From positions 1-30,743 of IMG/VR virus record IMGVR_UViG_3300020020_000125: DNA of 30,743 bases; one strand, given 5' to 3'. This document shows positions 7,421 to 30,743 of this stretch, piece after piece (the first letter of the stretch is position 1; every line of letters begins with the position of its first letter). The DNA is from a virus. Made by a program: the position numbers and the translations under genes. The notes beneath the pieces are model-generated. The model did no database searches, had not been told where the DNA came from, and worked only from the letters and a program-made list of their open reading frames with translations.

Positions 7421-7610
7421 CGGATCCCTCGCTCTCGGTCTCGGCATCCTCGGTCTCGCGGCGGCGGATCACTTTTTGGCAGACCGGGCACGATGGCGCA
7501 TCGGCATGATCGCGGCGGCGGATCAGGATCCCGCACACGGCCCGCACCACGAGCCGCCCTGGCGCATCCCAATCGCAAAAGTGGGAATGATCACCTAACA
7601 CCATCAACAT
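7407..7610 (-). CDS. Small His/Cys-rich protein (67 aa)
   Basis: The N-terminal part has HSHFCDW and a later CG, and the C-terminal part has SCPVCQKVIRRR, so a Zn site of the His/Cys type is likely. An acidic tail follows. GGAG is 6 nt upstream of the ATG at 7610, and the gene begins inside the 3' end of the RecT-like gene by 20 nt; ATG at 7604 is a close alternative. Function unknown. Confidence 0.6.
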   Translation of the reverse strand: MLMVLGDHSHFCDWDAPGRLVVRAVCGILIRRRDHADAPSCPVCQKVIRRRETEDAETESEGSDAVR

Positions 7611-8310
7611 GCTCCACTCCCTCGGCGGCTTGCGGTGACTCACTAAGCCGCCGCACCCGAGCGGCGGCCGGCGGATCGTCCATGCGTGGCGGGGTGTCCT
7701 CGGCCTCTTCACGCGTGATCAGGCCACGGAGCAAATCCGGAAACGCATCCCGAGCGGCAAACGATCGCGCTCGCATGAGCAACATGCGATCGGGGTAGAG
7801 TTGCCACGGGCCTGGCTTGCCATAGAGGCCGGCCCGCTTGGCTTGCGCCACGGAAAATGATCGCGTGATCGGATCGGGGTGGCCGGCTCGCTTGAACGTA
7901 CACACGGCCTCGGTGGTATCGGCCTTGATCGCATCGGGGGTGAGCCGCTCCACGCGTTGCCCGCCCTCGGTCAGATATTCATCGTGCGCGAGGCAGAGGG
8001 GTGATTGCTTCACGATCGCCAAGAGACCATCGCCCCACACCGAGGGCCGGCCGTTGATCACCGCGATCGAATTCAACGCTTGCACGGGAGCTAATCCCAA
8101 CTCGGCCCCCATCATGATTGCGATGAGCGCGTCAGTTGGTTTACCGCGATAGCTCGCCGGCACGAGATTGGATTCGGATGCGAATTTCGCCGTGCGCCAT
8201 GCCTCTTCGATCGAGGCCGGCCGGATCCCGACGTTGACGGGTACGCGCTCGATCGGTTCGGCCGGCACCTTGGCCGGGAGTGTCTCGGGTACGATCACCG
8301 GATCACTCAT
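7591..8310 (-). CDS. recT: RecT-family single-strand annealing protein
   Basis: 239 residues matching phage RecT/Bet-type annealing proteins. The core contains SNLVPASYRGKPTDALIAIM, GAELGLAPVQALNSIAVING, RPSVWGDGLLAIV and, later, GLYGKPGPWQLYPDRMLLMRAR. These proteins coat and anneal ssDNA produced by a partner exonuclease, here presumably the PD-(D/E)XK gene two ORFs downstream, for recombination-dependent replication. The C-terminal 40 residues are charged and look disordered. The start overlaps the preceding HTH gene by 8 nt. Confidence 0.92.
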   Translation of the reverse strand: MSDPVIVPETLPAKVPAEPIERVPVNVGIRPASIEEAWRTAKFASESNLVPASYRGKPTDALIAIMMGAELGLAPVQALNSIAVINGRPSVWGDGLLAIVKQSPLCLAHDEYLTEGGQRVERLTPDAIKADTTEAVCTFKRAGHPDPITRSFSVAQAKRAGLYGKPGPWQLYPDRMLLMRARSFAARDAFPDLLRGLITREEAEDTPPRMDDPPAAARVRRLSESPQAAEGVEHVDGVR

Positions 8311-8602
8311 GGGCGGTCTCCACGATCACACGCGGCCGCCGAGGGATCGGCCGGCTCACGATGCGGCGATGCGATGCCAAGGTGCGCGGGGCCTCCCACT
8401 CGCCGGCCGCATAGCGATCGATGAGATCCGCCCGATACAATTTGTGATTCGGGATCGATGGCTGTAGCTCCACCACGTACGGCAACTCGCCGGCCTTGTG
8501 TTTCCGCTCAAATTTTTTCGCGCTCATCATCCCGAGGATCGCCATCACTTGCGTTCGGGTGTAGCACTTCGCCGAGGCCGGCGGCTTGCTGATCATTGCC
8601 AT
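8303..8602 (-). CDS. Small HTH DNA-binding protein (99 aa)
   Basis: The N-terminal half (CYTRTQVMAILGM, SAKKFERKHKAGELPY) has the look of a MerR/excisionase-type helix-turn-helix, followed by NHKLYRADLIDRYAAGEW, a typical wing-plus-helix ending. The C-terminus is Arg/Pro-rich. GAGGA lies 6 nt upstream of the ATG at 8602. The first 95 nt overlap out of frame with the previous HTH gene. It is probably an early regulator or excisionase. Confidence 0.7.
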   Translation of the reverse strand: MAMISKPPASAKCYTRTQVMAILGMMSAKKFERKHKAGELPYVVELQPSIPNHKLYRADLIDRYAAGEWEAPRTLASHRRIVSRPIPRRPRVIVETAHE

Positions 8603-8834
8603 CGTTGGTCCTCACTCCGGCGGGCGGCGGGGCCGGCACGCCGTACGATCGTTGCTCTAACCATTCGCGCACGGTCGGCCCCCACCATCGGGCCTGGCGG
8701 TTGATGTCAGGGAGTGGCGGAATCATGAACGTGCCCGCTTTCAGTTCCCGCCGGATGTAGCTCTGCGATAACTTCAACAGATACGCCATATCTGCCACGG
8801 TTAGCGCACGATCCATATCAATCAGGCTTTCCAT
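8508..8834 (-). CDS. Excisionase/AlpA-like HTH protein, first early gene
   Basis: 108 residues. Residues 8-36 (RALTVADMAYLLKLSQSYIRRELKAG) form a canonical helix-turn-helix of the excisionase/AlpA type, followed by a wing (PDINRQARWWGPTVREWLEQ). It is the first gene of the leftward operon, next to the control region, where Cro-, Xis- or AlpA-like proteins are expected. No SD is evident before the ATG at 8834 or the alternative ATG at 8816, so translation may be leaderless or weak. The tail overlaps the next gene by 95 nt. Confidence 0.72.
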   Translation of the reverse strand: MESLIDMDRALTVADMAYLLKLSQSYIRRELKAGTFMIPPLPDINRQARWWGPTVREWLEQRSYGVPAPPPAGVRTNDGNDQQAAGLGEVLHPNASDGDPRDDEREKI

Positions 8835-9116
8835 TGCGTCATCAAGTTACAACGGACGCCATCCGACGTTACCCGCATGGCAAGGTGACATTGATACCGT
8901 GTCACCGGATATCCCGGCATCGTGGAGGTGGCCACCGCCGATTGCTCGGCCGCGTGGCTCGCGGCGGATGCTCGCTGGTAGAACTGTCAGGTGGCCGACG
9001 ATCGGTGCATTGCGACAGTGAAATATCTATTGCGCCGGATGGCGTCTTTTGGTAGAAGTCAAGCGGGATTTCTGACAAATCGATGGGCTAAGATCGTGGT
9101 CCGCTTGGAGGTAACG
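8835..9116. promoter_or_regulatory. Divergent control region with TGACA/TGTCA half-sites
   Basis: A non-coding region between the leftward early operon and the rightward lysogeny cluster. It contains TGACA or TGTCA at 8886, 8900, 8985 and 9073, with a fifth copy at 9124 just inside the next ORF; about 0.5 would be expected by chance in this span. ACTGTC at 8983-8988 and GACAGT at 9014-9019 form a further dyad. This is the natural place for the genetic switch. Clear -35/-10 pairs could not be fixed by eye. Confidence 0.55.
8884..8906. promoter_or_regulatory. Perfect 7-bp operator-like dyad
   Basis: GGTGACA (8884-8890) and TGTCACC (8900-8906) are exact inverted repeats around a 9-bp spacer, giving a 23-bp site of the size bound by dimeric phage repressors. 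It lies 50 bp upstream of the first early gene. The binder is unknown; the HigA-like and HTH proteins of the rightward cluster are candidates. Confidence 0.6.
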
Positions 9117-9260
9117 ATGCGTGTGTCAAATGGGATTCTCGCTCTCCCGAAAAAATTAGGGGGGGGGGGGGGGGGGGGGGTGGGTGGCAAGTGCCATGCC
9201 AATAATCGGCGCGTAGTCGGCCGCCCCTCCTACGCCCTCGCTCGATCCGGAGCGCGGTGA
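9117..9260 (+). CDS. 47-aa ORF interrupted by a poly-G tract
   Basis: A strong SD (GGAGGT at 9107-9112) precedes the ATG. The product starts MRVSNGILALPKKL, then seven Gly encoded by the 22-G run, then a Lys/Arg-containing tail ending SGAR. The stop overlaps the next gene's start region (GTGATG), consistent with coupling. With one G more or fewer, the frame ends within 9-12 codons after the tract, so the tail is phase-variable in principle. The small size and low complexity leave its reality uncertain. Confidence 0.4.
   Translation: MRVSNGILALPKKLGGGGGGGVGGKCHANNRRVVGRPSYALARSGAR
9159..9180. repeat. Homopolymer of 22 G
   Basis: An uninterrupted run of 22 G on the plus strand, by far the longest homopolymer in the window. 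Tracts of this length slip readily during replication and sequencing, so its exact length in this assembly is not reliable. It lies within the 47-aa ORF at the start of the rightward cluster. Confidence 0.95.
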
Positions 9261-9691
9261 TGCTTTTCTCCACCGCGATCTACGGTTCATCGGCCGTCAA
9301 GTCTGCTACTGAACGTGTAAGTGCCCCCGTGCTCGTGATCGGCCGGGATCAATTCACCCGGGCCGAGTTGGCGGCGGTCTCGTGTTTCTCGTTTGTGGCC
9401 GCTCGCAATCTCACCGAGCTACTCTCCACCGCCAAAGCCGAATCGGTGCGCCAGGTGTACCAAGAGATCAGCCCGTTTGATCTGGCCATCCCGAATCTCG
9501 GGCCGATCTCGCTCATGGTCCTCGGGGCCGCCTTTGAAATTCGCGGAGTGGGCACGATCGAATCGTGGGCCGCGAAACACAAGGCCAAGGATGCCCCCGC
9601 CGGATTCGTGACGTTCAACACCTTGAAACACCAGCACGATGCGATCGAGAAGCATGCCGCCACGAGCCACCGCCGCAAACGGCGGAAATAG
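9260..9691 (+). CDS. Hypothetical protein, basic C-terminus
   Basis: 143 residues from the ATG at 9260 (GGAG 7 nt upstream; an in-frame GTG at 9257 is an alternative). An alpha/beta-like central part contains APVLVIGRDQFTRAELAAV and DLAIPNLGPISLMVLGAAFE. The end is strongly basic (SHRRKRRK), suggesting nucleic-acid contact. No family is recognised. It is the first clear gene of the rightward cluster, where repressors or superinfection genes usually lie. Confidence 0.65.
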   Translation: MLFSTAIYGSSAVKSATERVSAPVLVIGRDQFTRAELAAVSCFSFVAARNLTELLSTAKAESVRQVYQEISPFDLAIPNLGPISLMVLGAAFEIRGVGTIESWAAKHKAKDAPAGFVTFNTLKHQHDAIEKHAATSHRRKRRK

Positions 9692-9703
9692 GAGACGACA
9701 GAC

Positions 9704-10330
9704 ATGGCCAAGTACACACGCCCGATGAACGGGGCCGCCCGCCCCGAGGTGATCGATGCCCTCGCACACGGCAACGCGATCGATTCGCGCATCGCTCGGC
9801 GGCTCGCCGCGCTCCGTGCCGAGCGCGATGCCATCCAGGCGCAGATCGATCACTATGAATTTGTGGCGGCCGATCTCACGCACACGAGGACGGCCAAGAA
9901 ACAAGAGGCCACGGCCGCCCTCGTGAGCGCGGCGATCAATTTGGAGACCGGCCGCCGCCGCAAAGGGAGCGAACGCGTGGCCGAGATCATCGCGGCCGTG
10001 GCCGACGATGAACCGATCCACGCGAAAACGATCGCCGAGCGGGCGGGCGTGCATACGGGTACCGTCCTCAACTGGCTCCGATCGCATGGCGGCTACCGTA
10101 AAACCGGCAAGGCCGATCAAACGCGATGGCTCCGCAAGGGCACCAAGCGCACGCCCACGAGCAAGGCCGGCAAACGGCGGGCACGGATGGCCGAGTTTCT
10201 TGGGCGGTACGATCCGATCGAGCCACGCCCGGGCGGCCAACGGGTGGCCCCGTATGTACGGCGGGGGTACCTCGCCAAGAGCGGCGATGGCTACGTTCGC
10301 ACCGAGAAACCGACACCCGCCACCGCGTGA
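9704..10330 (+). CDS. DNA-binding protein with coiled coil and HTH
   Basis: 208 residues. Residues 28-50 (SRIARRLAALRAERDAIQAQID) form a short coiled coil. Residues about 87-135 (SERVAEIIAAVADDEP, AKTIAERAGVHTGTVLNWLRSHGG) form a winged-helix/HTH with the AERAGVHTGTVLNWL recognition segment. The C-terminal third is Lys/Arg-rich and may add DNA contacts. AGGAG lies 9 nt upstream. In this position it could be a transcriptional regulator of the lysogeny cluster; no specific family is assigned. Confidence 0.68.
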   Translation: MAKYTRPMNGAARPEVIDALAHGNAIDSRIARRLAALRAERDAIQAQIDHYEFVAADLTHTRTAKKQEATAALVSAAINLETGRRRKGSERVAEIIAAVADDEPIHAKTIAERAGVHTGTVLNWLRSHGGYRKTGKADQTRWLRKGTKRTPTSKAGKRRARMAEFLGRYDPIEPRPGGQRVAPYVRRGYLAKSGDGYVRTEKPTPATA

Positions 10331-12475: not shown

Positions 12476-12518
12476 ACCGCCGCCGCCCCCGAAACTTTTA
12501 CCCCGCTTGGAGACTGTG

Positions 12519-13631
12519 ATGACCAACGAATACAAGATCAAGAAAACCGATCCCCGGCTCGCGTTGCGGGGGGTCCGCATCAAAGGCCGCCAGTGGGAAG
12601 TGTCCCGCCAGGTGGCCGGCAAACTGTGCATCGCCATGATGCCGATCGAGAGCACGGCCGCCGCGCTCATCGCCGAGTGGGAGCAACTCAAAACCGCCGC
12701 CCCCAAGGCGGCCGAGGCCGGCACGCTCCCGGCCGCCATCGCCACGTTCAAATTGCAGATCACCGCGATGCCAAGCTACGGGGCCACCGCCCGCGAGTTG
12801 GATCGATGGGTGGCGGAACTGGATGCGGCCGATCGCGATCCGGCCTCGATCACCGCTGACGACATCGCCATCGTCTTGAACCGTTGGAAGATCCCCGTAG
12901 CGCGGCCGGCCGGCCTCAAAGGGCGATGGGCACCCGTGCCCGATCCCGGCTCCACGGTCATCAAGCGGCTCTCGGCTCTCTCTCGGTTCTACTCGGTGAT
13001 GTTCCCCGCGTTGCCGAATCCGATCGATGCCCTCGGGGATCGCCGGCCCAAGGCCAAGGGGGCCGAGGTACGCGGGGTGCCGATCGATGTGCTCGTCCGG
13101 ATCATCGCGGCGATGCCGGATACGTTCGGCCGGAGCCGCAAGCCGGGAGCGCGGCTTTCGCTGGCCAAGATTCGCGCCACGGCGATGGCGTACACCGGCC
13201 TTGATCCGATCCAACTCAAAGAGTTGAAACCCAACGATGTGATCCTCGGCCCTGACGCGGGCACCGTGCGGAGCTATCGCCGCAAGGGGGATGGCGTGGT
13301 CATCGATACGATCCCGCTCACCGGCCCCGGCCTCGCGGCGATGCGGGCCTTTGTCGCGGCCGACGCGTTCGGCACGTTCAACACAACGGTCGTGTACCGG
13401 GCCGTGGTCCTCGCGGCCGCCAAAGCCGGCATCCCCCGGGGCACGTTCCGCACCAAGGATCTCCGGCACTCGTTTGGCTCGCACCTGTACACGGTCTGCG
13501 GAGACCAGGCCACCGTGGGCCGGTTTCTCTTTCACGCTCCCGGCTCCAAGATGACCGCGAGGTACACCCGCTCGGCCAATCGCGTGGTAAACGAGGCCGC
13601 CGCCGCCGCGTTCGTGTTGCCCGCCGAGTAG
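12519..13631 (+). CDS. int: Tyrosine recombinase (integrase), atypical active site
   Basis: 370 residues: an N-terminal SAM-like/arm-binding region (about 1-175) and a C-terminal catalytic domain. Catalytic motifs are AYTGLDPIQLKEL at 224-236, YRRKGDG with Lys256, KDLRHSFGSHLY at 313-324 with Arg316, LFHAP with His339, and ARYTRS with the nucleophile Tyr349. The box-I Arg of the usual TGLR motif is Asp229, and the box-II His is Lys313. Similar TGLP/TGLD variants occur among environmental integrases, as far as I recall. The ATG has GGAG 6-7 nt upstream. It sits next to the attP candidate. Confidence 0.9.
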   Translation: MTNEYKIKKTDPRLALRGVRIKGRQWEVSRQVAGKLCIAMMPIESTAAALIAEWEQLKTAAPKAAEAGTLPAAIATFKLQITAMPSYGATARELDRWVAELDAADRDPASITADDIAIVLNRWKIPVARPAGLKGRWAPVPDPGSTVIKRLSALSRFYSVMFPALPNPIDALGDRRPKAKGAEVRGVPIDVLVRIIAAMPDTFGRSRKPGARLSLAKIRATAMAYTGLDPIQLKELKPNDVILGPDAGTVRSYRRKGDGVVIDTIPLTGPGLAAMRAFVAADAFGTFNTTVVYRAVVLAAAKAGIPRGTFRTKDLRHSFGSHLYTVCGDQATVGRFLFHAPGSKMTARYTRSANRVVNEAAAAAFVLPAE

Positions 13632-14185: not shown

Positions 14186-14224
14186 ATAAAATAACCGGCC
14201 GCCGCCACCCCCCCCCGGGGGGGG
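14186..14224 (-). terminator. Possible terminator of the late operon
   Basis: On the minus strand a C8/G9 palindrome (14208-14224) is followed after a GC-rich stretch by TTATTTTAT (14194 down to 14186), in the only non-coding region downstream of the late operon. The hairpin has almost no loop and the U-rich tract is not immediately adjacent, so this is a weak call. Confidence 0.3.
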
Positions 14225-14235
14225 CCGCCTTGGCG

Positions 14236-14295
14236 GGCCGGCTCCGGCGGTCTCTCCCCCGGTGGCCCCATGCCGCCGAGGCACCGGAGCCGGCC
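14236..14295. repeat. 12-bp GC-rich inverted repeat
   Basis: GGCCGGCTCCGG (14236-14247) and CCGGAGCCGGCC (14284-14295) are exact inverted repeats with a 36-bp loop. The structure lies just downstream of the last late gene and could stabilise or end the late transcript. Nothing coding is convincing in 13954-14327. Confidence 0.6.
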
Positions 14296-14327
14296 GCCAA
14301 GTGTCAGGGCCGGCGGCCGGTGAACGT

Positions 14328-14732
14328 CTACCGGGGCCGGTAGCCGGCGGGCGGGCCGCCGAGGCCGAGGCCGCCAGGTGCGGCCGGGGTGAACGTAAAC
14401 GCGAGCGGCACGGACTCGGCCCCGCTCGGATTCCGCACGGCCACCGGGAGCGTAATCGCTACGGCGGCGGTGGCCATGTTGATCCCCGTGGTCAACTCCG
14501 AATCGCTGATGCGCGTGGTCGGCTCCGGCGATCCGTTCCACACGATGACCGCTCCCTCGGCAAAGCCGGCCCCGTAACAGTGGAGGACGCAATCGGGAGA
14601 GCCGAGCGGCACCACCGCCGGATCGATCTTCACGAGGATCGGATCCCGCTCGGCCTCGGCCGCATAGATCGAGGCCACCCCCGGCCCGGTCCACAGCACA
14701 TCGCCATTCGCGTTTTTGATCGTGACGTTCAT
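14328..14732 (-). CDS. Ig-like (IPT/TIG-type) domain protein
   Basis: 134 residues. The centre reads as a single immunoglobulin-like IPT/TIG fold: DPAVVPLGSPDCVLHCYGAG, F-x-E-G-x-V-I-V-W-N-G-S, ELTTGINMATAAVAI and V-R-N-P-S-G-x-E-S, ending FTFTP, followed by a Gly/Pro-rich tail. Phages use such domains as decorations of virion proteins to bind carbohydrates or host surfaces. It is the last gene of the late operon, coupled (ATGA) to the candidate holin. Confidence 0.7.
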   Translation of the reverse strand: MNVTIKNANGDVLWTGPGVASIYAAEAERDPILVKIDPAVVPLGSPDCVLHCYGAGFAEGAVIVWNGSPEPTTRISDSELTTGINMATAAVAITLPVAVRNPSGAESVPLAFTFTPAAPGGLGLGGPPAGYRPR

Positions 14733-14869
14733 CGGATCACCGTTGGCGCGTACGCGATCAACAGCGCGAGGATGATCACGAGCACGGCCGGCCACAAGAG
14801 TACGGCGCGGCCGCTCCCGTGCGCGAGCGTGATCGCCAGGGCCACGAGTAGCAGCAAGAAAATCAACAT
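14729..14869 (-). CDS. Candidate holin (two hydrophobic helices)
   Basis: MLIFLLLLVALAITLAHGSG is followed by RAVLLWPAVLVIILALLIAY and a short polar end: two membrane segments with a turn containing His, Ser and Arg, 46 residues in all. The size and topology suit a small class II/III holin. AGGAG lies 6 nt before this ATG; an in-frame ATG at 14875 lies directly against the SD, and such dual starts are known in holin/antiholin pairs. No endolysin is recognisable nearby. Confidence 0.5.
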   Translation of the reverse strand: MLIFLLLLVALAITLAHGSGRAVLLWPAVLVIILALLIAYAPTVIR

Positions 14870-14882
14870 CGCCATCTCCTAT

Positions 14883-15158
14883 TCACCCGCCCTCGGCCAG
14901 TGCCCCGCCGCCGAATCGCTCCGAGAATTCGGCGTCCGCAATCACCTGGTATTCATCGCGCCAGAGATCCTTGACGATCCAATCGCCCGCCCGTAGCAGC
15001 ACCATGCCGCGAGACGTATGTACGTGCGGCCCGGGCATCGGCTCTATGTTGGTGCCGCCGCATAGGTCCACGCCCGCCTGTAGCGGCTCGGTGTCGGTGC
15101 CGTTCCATTGTTCGGCCAGCACCTTGAACGGTTTTTCCACGTACTGTTTTTGCGCCAT
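14883..15158 (-). CDS. Small conserved phage protein (PGDWI type)
   Basis: 91 residues starting MAQKQYVEKPFKVLAEQWNG. It contains RAGDWIVKDLWRDEYQVIAD and a final EFSERF. The QWNG opening, central GDWI and ending with an acidic F/Y motif match a small protein family common in phages whose function is unknown to me. GGAG lies about 9 nt upstream of the ATG at 15158, which sits just after the fibre-like gene. Confidence 0.65.
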   Translation of the reverse strand: MAQKQYVEKPFKVLAEQWNGTDTEPLQAGVDLCGGTNIEPMPGPHVHTSRGMVLLRAGDWIVKDLWRDEYQVIADAEFSERFGGGALAEGG

Positions 15159-15159
15159 A

Positions 15160-16011
15160 TCAGAGCACTCCGAATTCGATCGTGGCGTAGCACCCGAGCG
15201 CGTTGGTTTGCACGGCCCACGGCAAGGTGGCCGCTCGAAAAATCGCGATCCGATCGGTACCGTACGCGGCGGGTGCAACCTGGCACATCCCATTTTCCGT
15301 GGTGCCGTTGTCTTGCGCGAAACACCACGCCACTTTTTGTGAGCTTGCCAGGAAATTGCCCCACCCGGTATTCAAAATCAGTAGGAGATTGTTGCTCACC
15401 GAGAGCGAACTAGCGGCAATCGAAAACGAGACGGTGAGCGTGCGGCCGCGCAAAACAAAATTCAACGCCTGCATATCGCCAGCGTCAACGGTCCACACGC
15501 CCGCACCGGAATGAAAGTACGCCTGAGAGTACGCAGCGGTGATCGGACTGCCCTGATCATAATCGACCAAAATCCACTTGGTGCCGTTGTAATAGACCGA
15601 CATCCATCCATATGGGGCAACAGGGGTCGCGGCCGATCCCACGAGTAGAAAAAATTGATTCGCCGCCGCCGATGATGTTTGGTGCCCAAAGTACATCACC
15701 TGTGTCGGTGACATATTTTTGAACGTGAGCACGTCACCCATGACACCGGCCGCGATGCCGGTGAAGTACACCTGGCCCGCCCCGGTCCATTCGAGGATCG
15801 TATTAGCGGTACGGCCAGGCATCGCCCAATCGTGCAACGTGCCGGTGACGCCCGCCGCGATCACCGTGGCTCGTGAGCTACTCGCGCCGAGCGCGGCATC
15901 CACCGGATCGAGAATCACCCCGGCGATCGCGGCCTTATTCCAGGGCGTGCCGAGCAAGTTAGAGCCATCATCGTCCACGAGCGCGTTAAACGGTGCGCGG
16001 TTGATCGCCAT
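15160..16011 (-). CDS. Tail fibre-like / receptor-binding candidate
   Basis: 283 residues. The N-terminus NRAPFNALVDDDGSNLLGTP with WNKAAI and LDPVDAAL is a recurrent opening of phage tail-end proteins. The body is beta-rich, with aromatic/Gly segments (YGWMSVYYNGTKWILVDYD) like lectin or fibre folds. It follows the tail hub gene immediately; GAGGA is 7 nt upstream of the ATG. Host recognition is inferred from order and composition. Confidence 0.65.
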   Translation of the reverse strand: MAINRAPFNALVDDDGSNLLGTPWNKAAIAGVILDPVDAALGASSSRATVIAAGVTGTLHDWAMPGRTANTILEWTGAGQVYFTGIAAGVMGDVLTFKNMSPTQVMYFGHQTSSAAANQFFLLVGSAATPVAPYGWMSVYYNGTKWILVDYDQGSPITAAYSQAYFHSGAGVWTVDAGDMQALNFVLRGRTLTVSFSIAASSLSVSNNLLLILNTGWGNFLASSQKVAWCFAQDNGTTENGMCQVAPAAYGTDRIAIFRAATLPWAVQTNALGCYATIEFGVL

Positions 16012-25244: not shown

Positions 25245-27218
25245 CTACTCGCCGGCCTTGGCGCGGCCGGCCGGCGGCGGCACGTACGCCCCGCCCGCCT
25301 GGCCCATCGCAAACGGCGATGCCATCGTCGGGGTCCACGCGGCCCCGGTGAGGTACTCGACCGACACCGGCCGCGCTCGTACCCAATTGATGAACCGTTC
25401 CGCACGGAGGCCCACCAAATTGTTTTGCCAGAGCGACACGAGGACCGTAGTGGCATCGGCCGGATTCGCCGGAGCCGAATCCATCTGTACCGAGGCCTCG
25501 CGGCTGATATCGATGTTTACCTGGCCCTCGTCCGCGATGAGGATTTCATCGGCGGCCACGAGGATCACGAGACCGGCGGCGGTCTGCGATGTGACGACCT
25601 TGATCCCGCCTGGCAACGTGCCGCCCGTCGGCCCCATGCTCGGGAACTGTGGCGCACCGAGCGGATTGGTGGAGACACCGAGCGCGAATGCGTTGGCCTC
25701 GCTCATGATCAGTACCGCATTCGTGAGCGGCACTTTATTGGCGATGAACAACGCGATCATGTTGGCGATGTCGCCCCACGCGTTGACGGTGGCCACCGCG
25801 CTATGGGCACCGTTGGTGATCGAGGCGGGATGCACATCCGGCACGAGAGCCACCGCCGGATTGATGAACTGCTCATCGAGAAACGCGGCGATCCCCGCGA
25901 TCATGTCGCGGCGGCATGCCTCTTCGGCCGAGGGCGATGAGAGCCGTACCAATTCCTCGGTGAGCGTGATGATGCCGGCGGCCTTGCTCACGCCCAGCGA
26001 GACCGTGCCCCATCCGAGTTTCGTGAGCGGCTTGGCGGCACCCTGGCCCACCCATCCGTACACGCCCGCGAGAGTCTGTAGCGCCACCTTGGTATTGAAT
26101 GGCACGTACCGCATCCCGGGGATCTTGCCGATGATCGTGGCGGGCCGGAGCAACTCAATGAAATCGCCGAGGATGTTTTGCTGTACGAGCGGCCCCGCCC
26201 ACGATGGATCGGTGGTGTTGCCGGCGGCTACGGCCGCTTTCAGTGCGAGCGCCACCTCGGGGGTGGTGTCATTCCATTTCTTTTCCGCGATCGCCACTGC
26301 GCGGCCGTACTCGCCTCGGGCCTCGGCGATCGCCATGATCATGCGCGTGGCGGCCGTGCCCTTGGGGAGATTCGATTTGATCGCCACGTGCGGCACGGCC
26401 CCACGAAGATCCGATGCGCTCTTGACGGAGCGGATCGCGGTGATCGGAGTGGCGGCGGCCACGTTGGATGCTTCCAGCTTTTTGAGCCGCTGCAAATGCA
26501 GATCGGTTTTTTCGAGATCGACATCGAGGCGATCGTATTCGTCGGCCTCATCGCCCTCCAAGGTGGTGCCGGCCTCGTGGGCCTTAGTCATCAACTCGTC
26601 CATGCGAGCGACCGTGGCGGCTCGGTGATTTTCGGTTTCTTTCAACGCGTCAGGGATGAATGTTTTTTCGCTCATGATCGGCGCGTCCTTATCGCGCAAT
26701 CGCACGGCAAGGCCTGACGCGGCCGGAGTGGCGGCATGAGCGGACGCGCTCTTAACAGAGAGAATCGCGGCATCGAGATTCGCGGGCACCGAGACCAATG
26801 ACAACTCGCGGATCTCCGCTTTCAAGATCCGCAATCCTTGCTTGATCGGCTCCACCGCTTTCGTGATCATCCCAACCGAGACATTCCGGATGAGACCGTG
26901 CGCCACCATGTGCGCGGCCAGATCACAGAGATCCTTGAGCGATCCGATCTCGGTCACTTCGGGGATCGCGGCCGTGAACGGCAAGCCGGCGGCGGTGGCT
27001 CGCTGAAATGTCACCGTGCCCACGGGGATCCGTTGATCGTGATTGAGTAGGAGCGGGACCGGATTGGCAAACGTGAGGCCGAGCGGATCCACCATCTCGC
27101 CATGCGAATCGATCGTGGGCGTAGAGGCGATGCCGGAAAACGAGCGGCCAGATTTCGCGGCGGCCTTGATGGTGAGTTGCACCTCACCCGCGAGGACGGC
27201 ATCCACACTCGTGCTCAT
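25245..27218 (-). CDS. Prohead protease fused to major capsid protein
   Basis: 657 residues in one frame. Residues 1-160 are a U35/S78-type prohead protease: GIASTPTIDSHGEMVDPLGL, LLLNHDQRIPVGTV with His60, LIRNVSVGMITK with Ser114 and ELSLVSVPANLDA. Residues about 182-260 form the coiled-coil delta/scaffold region. From about 275 on is an HK97-fold capsid protein (LRPATIIGKIPGMRYVPFNT, AAGIITLTEELVRLSSP, GPTGGTLPGGIKVVTSQTA). An internal ATG at 26675 with AAGGA 10 nt upstream could also yield the capsid part alone. No SD is clear at 27218. Confidence 0.93.
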   Translation of the reverse strand: MSTSVDAVLAGEVQLTIKAAAKSGRSFSGIASTPTIDSHGEMVDPLGLTFANPVPLLLNHDQRIPVGTVTFQRATAAGLPFTAAIPEVTEIGSLKDLCDLAAHMVAHGLIRNVSVGMITKAVEPIKQGLRILKAEIRELSLVSVPANLDAAILSVKSASAHAATPAASGLAVRLRDKDAPIMSEKTFIPDALKETENHRAATVARMDELMTKAHEAGTTLEGDEADEYDRLDVDLEKTDLHLQRLKKLEASNVAAATPITAIRSVKSASDLRGAVPHVAIKSNLPKGTAATRMIMAIAEARGEYGRAVAIAEKKWNDTTPEVALALKAAVAAGNTTDPSWAGPLVQQNILGDFIELLRPATIIGKIPGMRYVPFNTKVALQTLAGVYGWVGQGAAKPLTKLGWGTVSLGVSKAAGIITLTEELVRLSSPSAEEACRRDMIAGIAAFLDEQFINPAVALVPDVHPASITNGAHSAVATVNAWGDIANMIALFIANKVPLTNAVLIMSEANAFALGVSTNPLGAPQFPSMGPTGGTLPGGIKVVTSQTAAGLVILVAADEILIADEGQVNIDISREASVQMDSAPANPADATTVLVSLWQNNLVGLRAERFINWVRARPVSVEYLTGAAWTPTMASPFAMGQAGGAYVPPPAGRAKAGE

Positions 27219-30595: not shown

Positions 30596-30617
30596 AACGC
30601 GCGGCGCGGCCCCGTGG

Positions 30618-30743
30618 TTTCCCGGCTCCCCGTAACTGCACATTCGCCCTCCCCCCCCGATGTCGAGTTACGGGCATTCCGCACGTGCGCGATCGCGCTC
30701 CCGCGTTACGGTGATTCACGTAATCGAACCGATCACAGACCGG
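30618..30743. repeat. Right copy of 126-bp terminal direct repeat
   Basis: Identical to bases 2-127 at the other end of the contig. On the circular map it must be counted once, which brings the late-operon leader directly next to the end of the HNH gene. Confidence 0.95.

Follow-up and report, generated by a model that had tools for sequence, protein, structure and literature searches.

The window, i.e. the whole stretch of DNA analysed here, is a 30,743-base IMG/VR virus record of an uncultured temperate phage with redundant ends, which share a 126-base exact direct repeat (positions 1-127 versus 30617-30743; 127 bases if a mismatch in the first of them is allowed). A terminal repeat of this kind leads us to expect a circular or circularly permuted molecule, and because the contig is end-redundant the window is probably a complete genome of ~30.6 kb. 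The terminase, capsid and portal genes are located on the minus strand, far to the right of the divergent early region considered below (Table 1). On the left side of this region the minus strand encodes a PHROG 66 HTH protein, a 99-aa protein and a RecT-like protein, whereas the plus strand to the right carries, in order, a 144-aa gene, a 208-aa gene, and genes for an antitoxin-like HTH protein, an Arc-like protein and an integrase. An integrase and regulators (PHROG 66 HTH, antitoxin-like HTH and Arc-like) are thus found beside divergent early genes, as in the lysogeny region of a temperate phage. A preceding sequence-only reading had placed a 22-G tract in a switch region at the start of a lysogeny cluster, and both parts of this placement hold: the minus-strand HTH/RecT genes start at 8834 and run left, the plus-strand genes towards the integrase start here, and the tract stands at the beginning of the lysogeny-side operon. 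The inverted repeat in the switch region has a counterpart in the relative G039, with arms CGTCACAC/GTGTGACG, and both repeats are candidate operators of the PHROG 66 HTH protein. A search for sigma-70-like promoters at 8600-9800 found none, so that control by promoter spacing is not arguable from this sequence.

Table 1. Features in and around the switch region of the window
Feature	Position	Strand	Remarks
RecT-like annealing protein	7591..8310	-	marker for finding relatives
HTH protein, PHROG 66 (excisionase/regulator)	8508..8834	-	divergent, other side of switch; 60% identical to the G039 protein
Inverted repeat GGTGACA-N9-TGTCACC	8884..8906		candidate operator
Shine-Dalgarno-like GGAGGT 5' of leader ATG	9107..9112	+
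47-aa leader ORF spanning the tract	9117..9260	+	stop overlaps next ATG
22-G tract	9159..9180	+	equivalents G24 in G039 and G15 in G042
First cassette gene, 143 aa (144 from GTG 9257)	9260..9691	+	32 related loci; no fold match
Second cassette gene, 208 aa	9704..10330	+	conserved C-terminal GYL..GDGYVRT.K motif; weak PHROG HNH match
Tyrosine integrase	12507..13631	+	same rightward cluster, downstream

The leader ORF and the cassette

The tract is the sole G or C run longer than 9 in the window, and hence its single G12+ run; the next longest are a C9 (14208-14216) and a G8 (14217-14224), which follow one another just 5' of an ORF at 14262-14996 and represent a second homopolymer oddity. The 47-aa ORF that had been described around the tract, preceded by GGAGGT and with a stop overlapping the next gene, was confirmed from the letters, the TGA at 9258-9260 sharing one base with the ATG at 9260-9262. 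Its ribosome-binding site had been called strong. GGAGG at Shine-Dalgarno distance precedes 2 of 416 ATGs on the plus strand and 8 of 519 on the minus strand of the window, and is consequently uncommon rather than unique; most of these ten ATGs lack an evident gene start. With the GGG codons removed, the GC3 of the leader is 0.59, as compared to 0.75 and 0.80 in the next two genes, a difference that weighs against the coupling reading given below. The leader is probably translated. The idea of a conserved 47-aa protein had to be rejected, as the post-tract peptides of the window and of the relatives G039 and G042 are unrelated and no Pfam match was obtained.

The reading frame depends on tract length in the manner proposed earlier, i.e. 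changes not divisible by three truncate the product. Among lengths from 16 to 28 G, the full leader frame is preserved at 16, 19, 22, 25 and 28, while at 20, 21, 23 and 24 G the leader comprises 28-33 aa. The premature stop is then at 9203 or 9214, leaving 54 or 43 nt, respectively, to the cassette ATG.

The two genes following the leader form a cassette (9260-10330), which is a candidate early or lysogeny module without known family or fold. A search with an alignment of the three 144-aa proteins (window, G039 and G042) matched 32 viral loci and nothing in genome_contigs, and the window protein on its own had no match in phages or plasmids. The family was aligned from 30 sequences. Its predicted structure has a mean pLDDT of 87.6, and at E 0.001 nothing in PDB or BFVD matched it; likewise, no useful naming of the cassette came from Pfam, PHROG or PADLOC. 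The motif closing the second gene was recovered with a simple pattern in 22 of 33 loci, and in two more by eye.

Distribution of the tract among relatives

The survey covered 69 distinct related viral records (1.99 Mb). G039 (29,530 bp) was among the 80 loci of a terminase search, and G042 (39,343 bp) was located with an HTH alignment. G12+ runs were found in only these two records, and in both at the same site as in the window; an initial scan of 42 of the 84 loci L129-L212, from which short contigs were mostly omitted, had returned the same pair. Among the 39 loci of a RecT search with three query sequences, five have G or C runs of at least 9, and G039 and G042 are the only ones of these with a run at the switch. 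Both tracts lie 43-45 nt 5' of a homolog (40-43% identity) of the 144-aa gene of the window. In G042 the G15 occupies 26891-26905, 43 nt before the homolog. The G039 contig starts with a C24 on the side of its HTH homolog and ends with a C24 on the side of its 144-aa homolog, the two ends having 29 bases in common (TCT-C24-AC) and differing beyond, which indicates that each end of the contig is an assembly break within the tract. A comparison of tract lengths among related phages, suggested in the sequence-only reading as a check, yields G22, G24 and G15. Wherever the tract is present it is positioned just before the cassette pair, despite the fact that the flanking DNA of the three phages is hardly alignable.

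In total, 33 loci carry the 144-aa gene (the 32 matches together with the window). The tract is present in three of them, two others are contigs that end 5' of the gene, and the remaining 28 are tractless, a stretch of no less than 400 nt before the gene being devoid of G or C runs of 9 or more. G9+ runs are found in 5 of the 32 records, at the switch in G039 and G042 (the latter with an additional run at 15429), at a contig end 5' of the gene in G066, and at contig ends elsewhere in G048 and G052. The two loci that end early, G045 and G066, stop 72 and 122 nt 5' of the cassette gene with no readable G tract. The G066 contig (L255) ends in a C9, read on the gene strand, that lies 113 nt 5' of the 144-aa gene, and in G045 (L256, L261) both contig ends flank the switch, one bearing a PHROG 66 HTH gene and the other the 144-aa gene. 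These two records are suggestive of further, unassembled tracts, and were not counted as such. In G048 the order of RecT and cassette is unchanged and the switch is assembled, yet the tract is absent, which counts against a general requirement for it. A tree of the 144-aa family was poorly resolved; G042 and G039 were joined (88/83) and the window stood apart, which is compatible with one origin of the tract as well as with several. No near-identical phage was present in the collections searched, and no useful match was retrieved from phages and plasmids by protein, from phages by DNA, from genome_contigs, or in viral scans with single early proteins.

Frame geometry and the interpretation of the tract

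At their assembled tract lengths, all three phages possess an ATG-initiated ORF with a Shine-Dalgarno-like motif that runs through the tract and stops no more than 10 nt from the cassette start. In G039 the ATG lies 17 nt 5' of the tract with GAGG upstream, and the 26-aa frame passes through G24 to stop 5 nt before the cassette ATG. In G042 the ATG overlaps the stop of an upstream HTH-like gene, and the 79-aa frame passes through G15 to stop 6 nt before the cassette ATG. First-order Markov shuffles of the three regions produced an equivalent ORF, defined by an ATG with an AGG-type motif 4-16 nt 5' of it and by a stop no further than 10 nt from the cassette start, in 31, 23 and 27 of 2000 cases, i.e. 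1-2% each, figures that overstate the case because the definition was set after the ORFs had been seen. On phase alone, the probability of finding all three in the coupled frame is 1/3 × 2/3 × 1/3, or ~0.07. In 11 of the 28 other loci (two pairs being near copies), an upstream ORF of at least 40 aa likewise has its stop no more than 10 nt from the cassette start, which indicates that coupling is common for the first cassette gene.

In the window and in G042, only the observed length class modulo three gives a stop near the cassette start, and repeat length would thus set the frame cleanly. This is different in G039: one phase ends 5 nt and another 9 nt ahead of the cassette start, the third overruns it by 41 nt, and the tract there would consequently not be a clean ON/OFF switch. 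The likeness to a contingency locus that had been drawn earlier survives in part. The long, pure short-unit repeat of such loci is present in all three phages (G22, G24 and G15), and the tract of the window resides in an ORF and is frame-sensitive, whereas the unconserved leader peptide, the near-equivalent phases of G039 and the many tractless loci speak against the comparison. The persistence of pure runs of 15-24 G beyond the divergence of their surroundings would imply renewal, by slippage or by selection.

Building on what was directly observed, namely the sequence of the tract, the equivalent tracts of two distant relatives at the corresponding site, and the dependence of the frame on tract length, we favour frame-gated translational coupling of the cassette in combination with slippage of the tract as a plausible reading, with a probability of about 0.4. 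A short leader ORF holds the homopolymer, and its stop abuts the two-gene cassette that heads the rightward lysogeny-side operon. The tract would gain or lose G residues via slipped-strand mispairing, placing some phage genomes in a frame where translation of the leader stops 43-54 nt before the cassette start. With such an early stop, less of the cassette would be expected to be translated by coupling. Sister phages could then differ in cassette expression and perhaps also in early takeover or in the decision for lysogeny. The broader proposition, that hypermutable poly-G leader ORFs serve a temperate phage lineage as slippage switches gating the cassette, so that each burst would contain phages pre-set to different early programmes, is rather doubtful. 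If true, it would amount to bet-hedging of lysogeny or host takeover through mutation and not through a regulatory decision.

Two other explanations are serious rivals of frame-gated coupling. In the first, the tract is real and has arisen by expansion, neutral or weakly tolerated, in a 5' leader that is unimportant and whose frame has no regulatory role. This is possible if on balance improbable: the leader peptides are unconserved, two of the three phases are near-equivalent in G039 and 28 of 33 loci manage without a tract, yet a pure run is found at the same spot in three diverged phages that have no other G12+ run, and the geometry of the leader ORF recurs across them. The second invokes action at the RNA level without any change in the DNA. 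Long G runs are prone to slippage and form quadruplexes. RNA polymerase slippage or ribosomal frameshifting at an A-rich/G-rich junction could provide a fixed mixture of frames, or a G-quadruplex could set a constant level of translation. All three phages indeed have an A-rich stretch that either adjoins the tract on its 5' side or is separated from it by a few bases (AAAAAATTA, AATAAAAATGT and ACAAAAAAATCC). Still, no conserved fold was apparent, with z-scores of -2.9 for the window versus -0.6 for the G039 half (the outer part of which is unreliable), and we consider an effect of this type distinctly unlikely. A conserved terminator or RNA fold 3' of the tract was rejected on the basis of the same z-scores and because the left end of G039 beyond the tract is unlike its right end.

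A role of the tract in replication or recombination, as an R-loop or primer site rather than a gene switch, would fit its location in a divergent early region beside recT, but is very unlikely considering that in G042 a gene separates the HTH gene from the tract, that the tract keeps with the cassette, and that no origin-like repeats stood out.

Finally, the tract could have been created by dark-cycle poly-G or by a chimeric join at the strand switch. A scan of viral_contigs for G or C runs of at least 22 returned at least 142 runs in at least 120 loci, and 101 of the 142 listed were within 150 nt of a locus end, as compared to ~4% expected; assemblies thus seem prone to break at long G runs. 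The run of the window is, however, internal to an end-redundant contig, and equivalent runs on the same strand with homologous flanking genes were assembled in two other metagenomes. Because these two distant relatives were found through other genes and have a tract at the same place, we regard the tract as real. An assembly artefact at a contig join, which had been named beforehand as one outcome that would undo the idea, does not agree with these data; a chimeric join was rejected, and an artefact origin in general is unlikely, our estimate for it being very low. The same scan also retrieved L071 and L085, which contain repeated units with C20+ and G20+ runs arranged head to head, several per contig, and are apparently unrelated to the phage of the window.

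Relation to known phase-variable systems

The closest phage parallel is Fletchervirus, for which Sorensen et al. in 2021 reportedly described hypermutable polyG tracts in receptor-binding protein genes together with phenotypic diversity. The window phage has in common with it a phage-borne poly-G run in an ORF, in which slippage is expected to switch the frame. An excerpt of a 2025 review (PMC11959909) presents these Campylobacter phages as an exceptional case, with the polyG tracts in receptor-binding proteins. In the window phage, on the other hand, the tract neighbours HTH/RecT genes, the cassette and the integrase and is not in a receptor-binding protein gene; tracts of this kind measure 15-24 nt as assembled and are part of a leader ORF that precedes an early cassette on the lysogeny side of a temperate phage.

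The bacterial simple-sequence-repeat contingency loci (poly-G/C in Campylobacter, Neisseria and Bordetella) likewise contain a coding G homopolymer in which an indel truncates the product unless its length is a multiple of three. The excerpted text of PMC9311878 gives 7-11 G for Campylobacter. The tract in the window differs in being viral and longer than this range, and the switched product would be that of the downstream gene, via coupling. The gene neuO, the repeat of which is reportedly a heptanucleotide, shares with the present proposal the carriage of a phase-variable gene on a temperate phage. Judging from an excerpt of PMC13001214, neuO is a host-capsule modifying gene, unlike the cassette.

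A literature search by titles and the beginnings of abstracts returned no homopolymer or poly-G switch in a phage lysogeny region, which is weak evidence of novelty. Poly-G tracts are probably under-counted, because they break assemblies. In contrast to the known receptor-binding protein switch of Fletchervirus, a poly-G leader in the lysogeny region would be new, and homopolymer phase variation in phages would, with a tract at the early operon on the lysogeny side, extend to the choice or the running of the life cycle.
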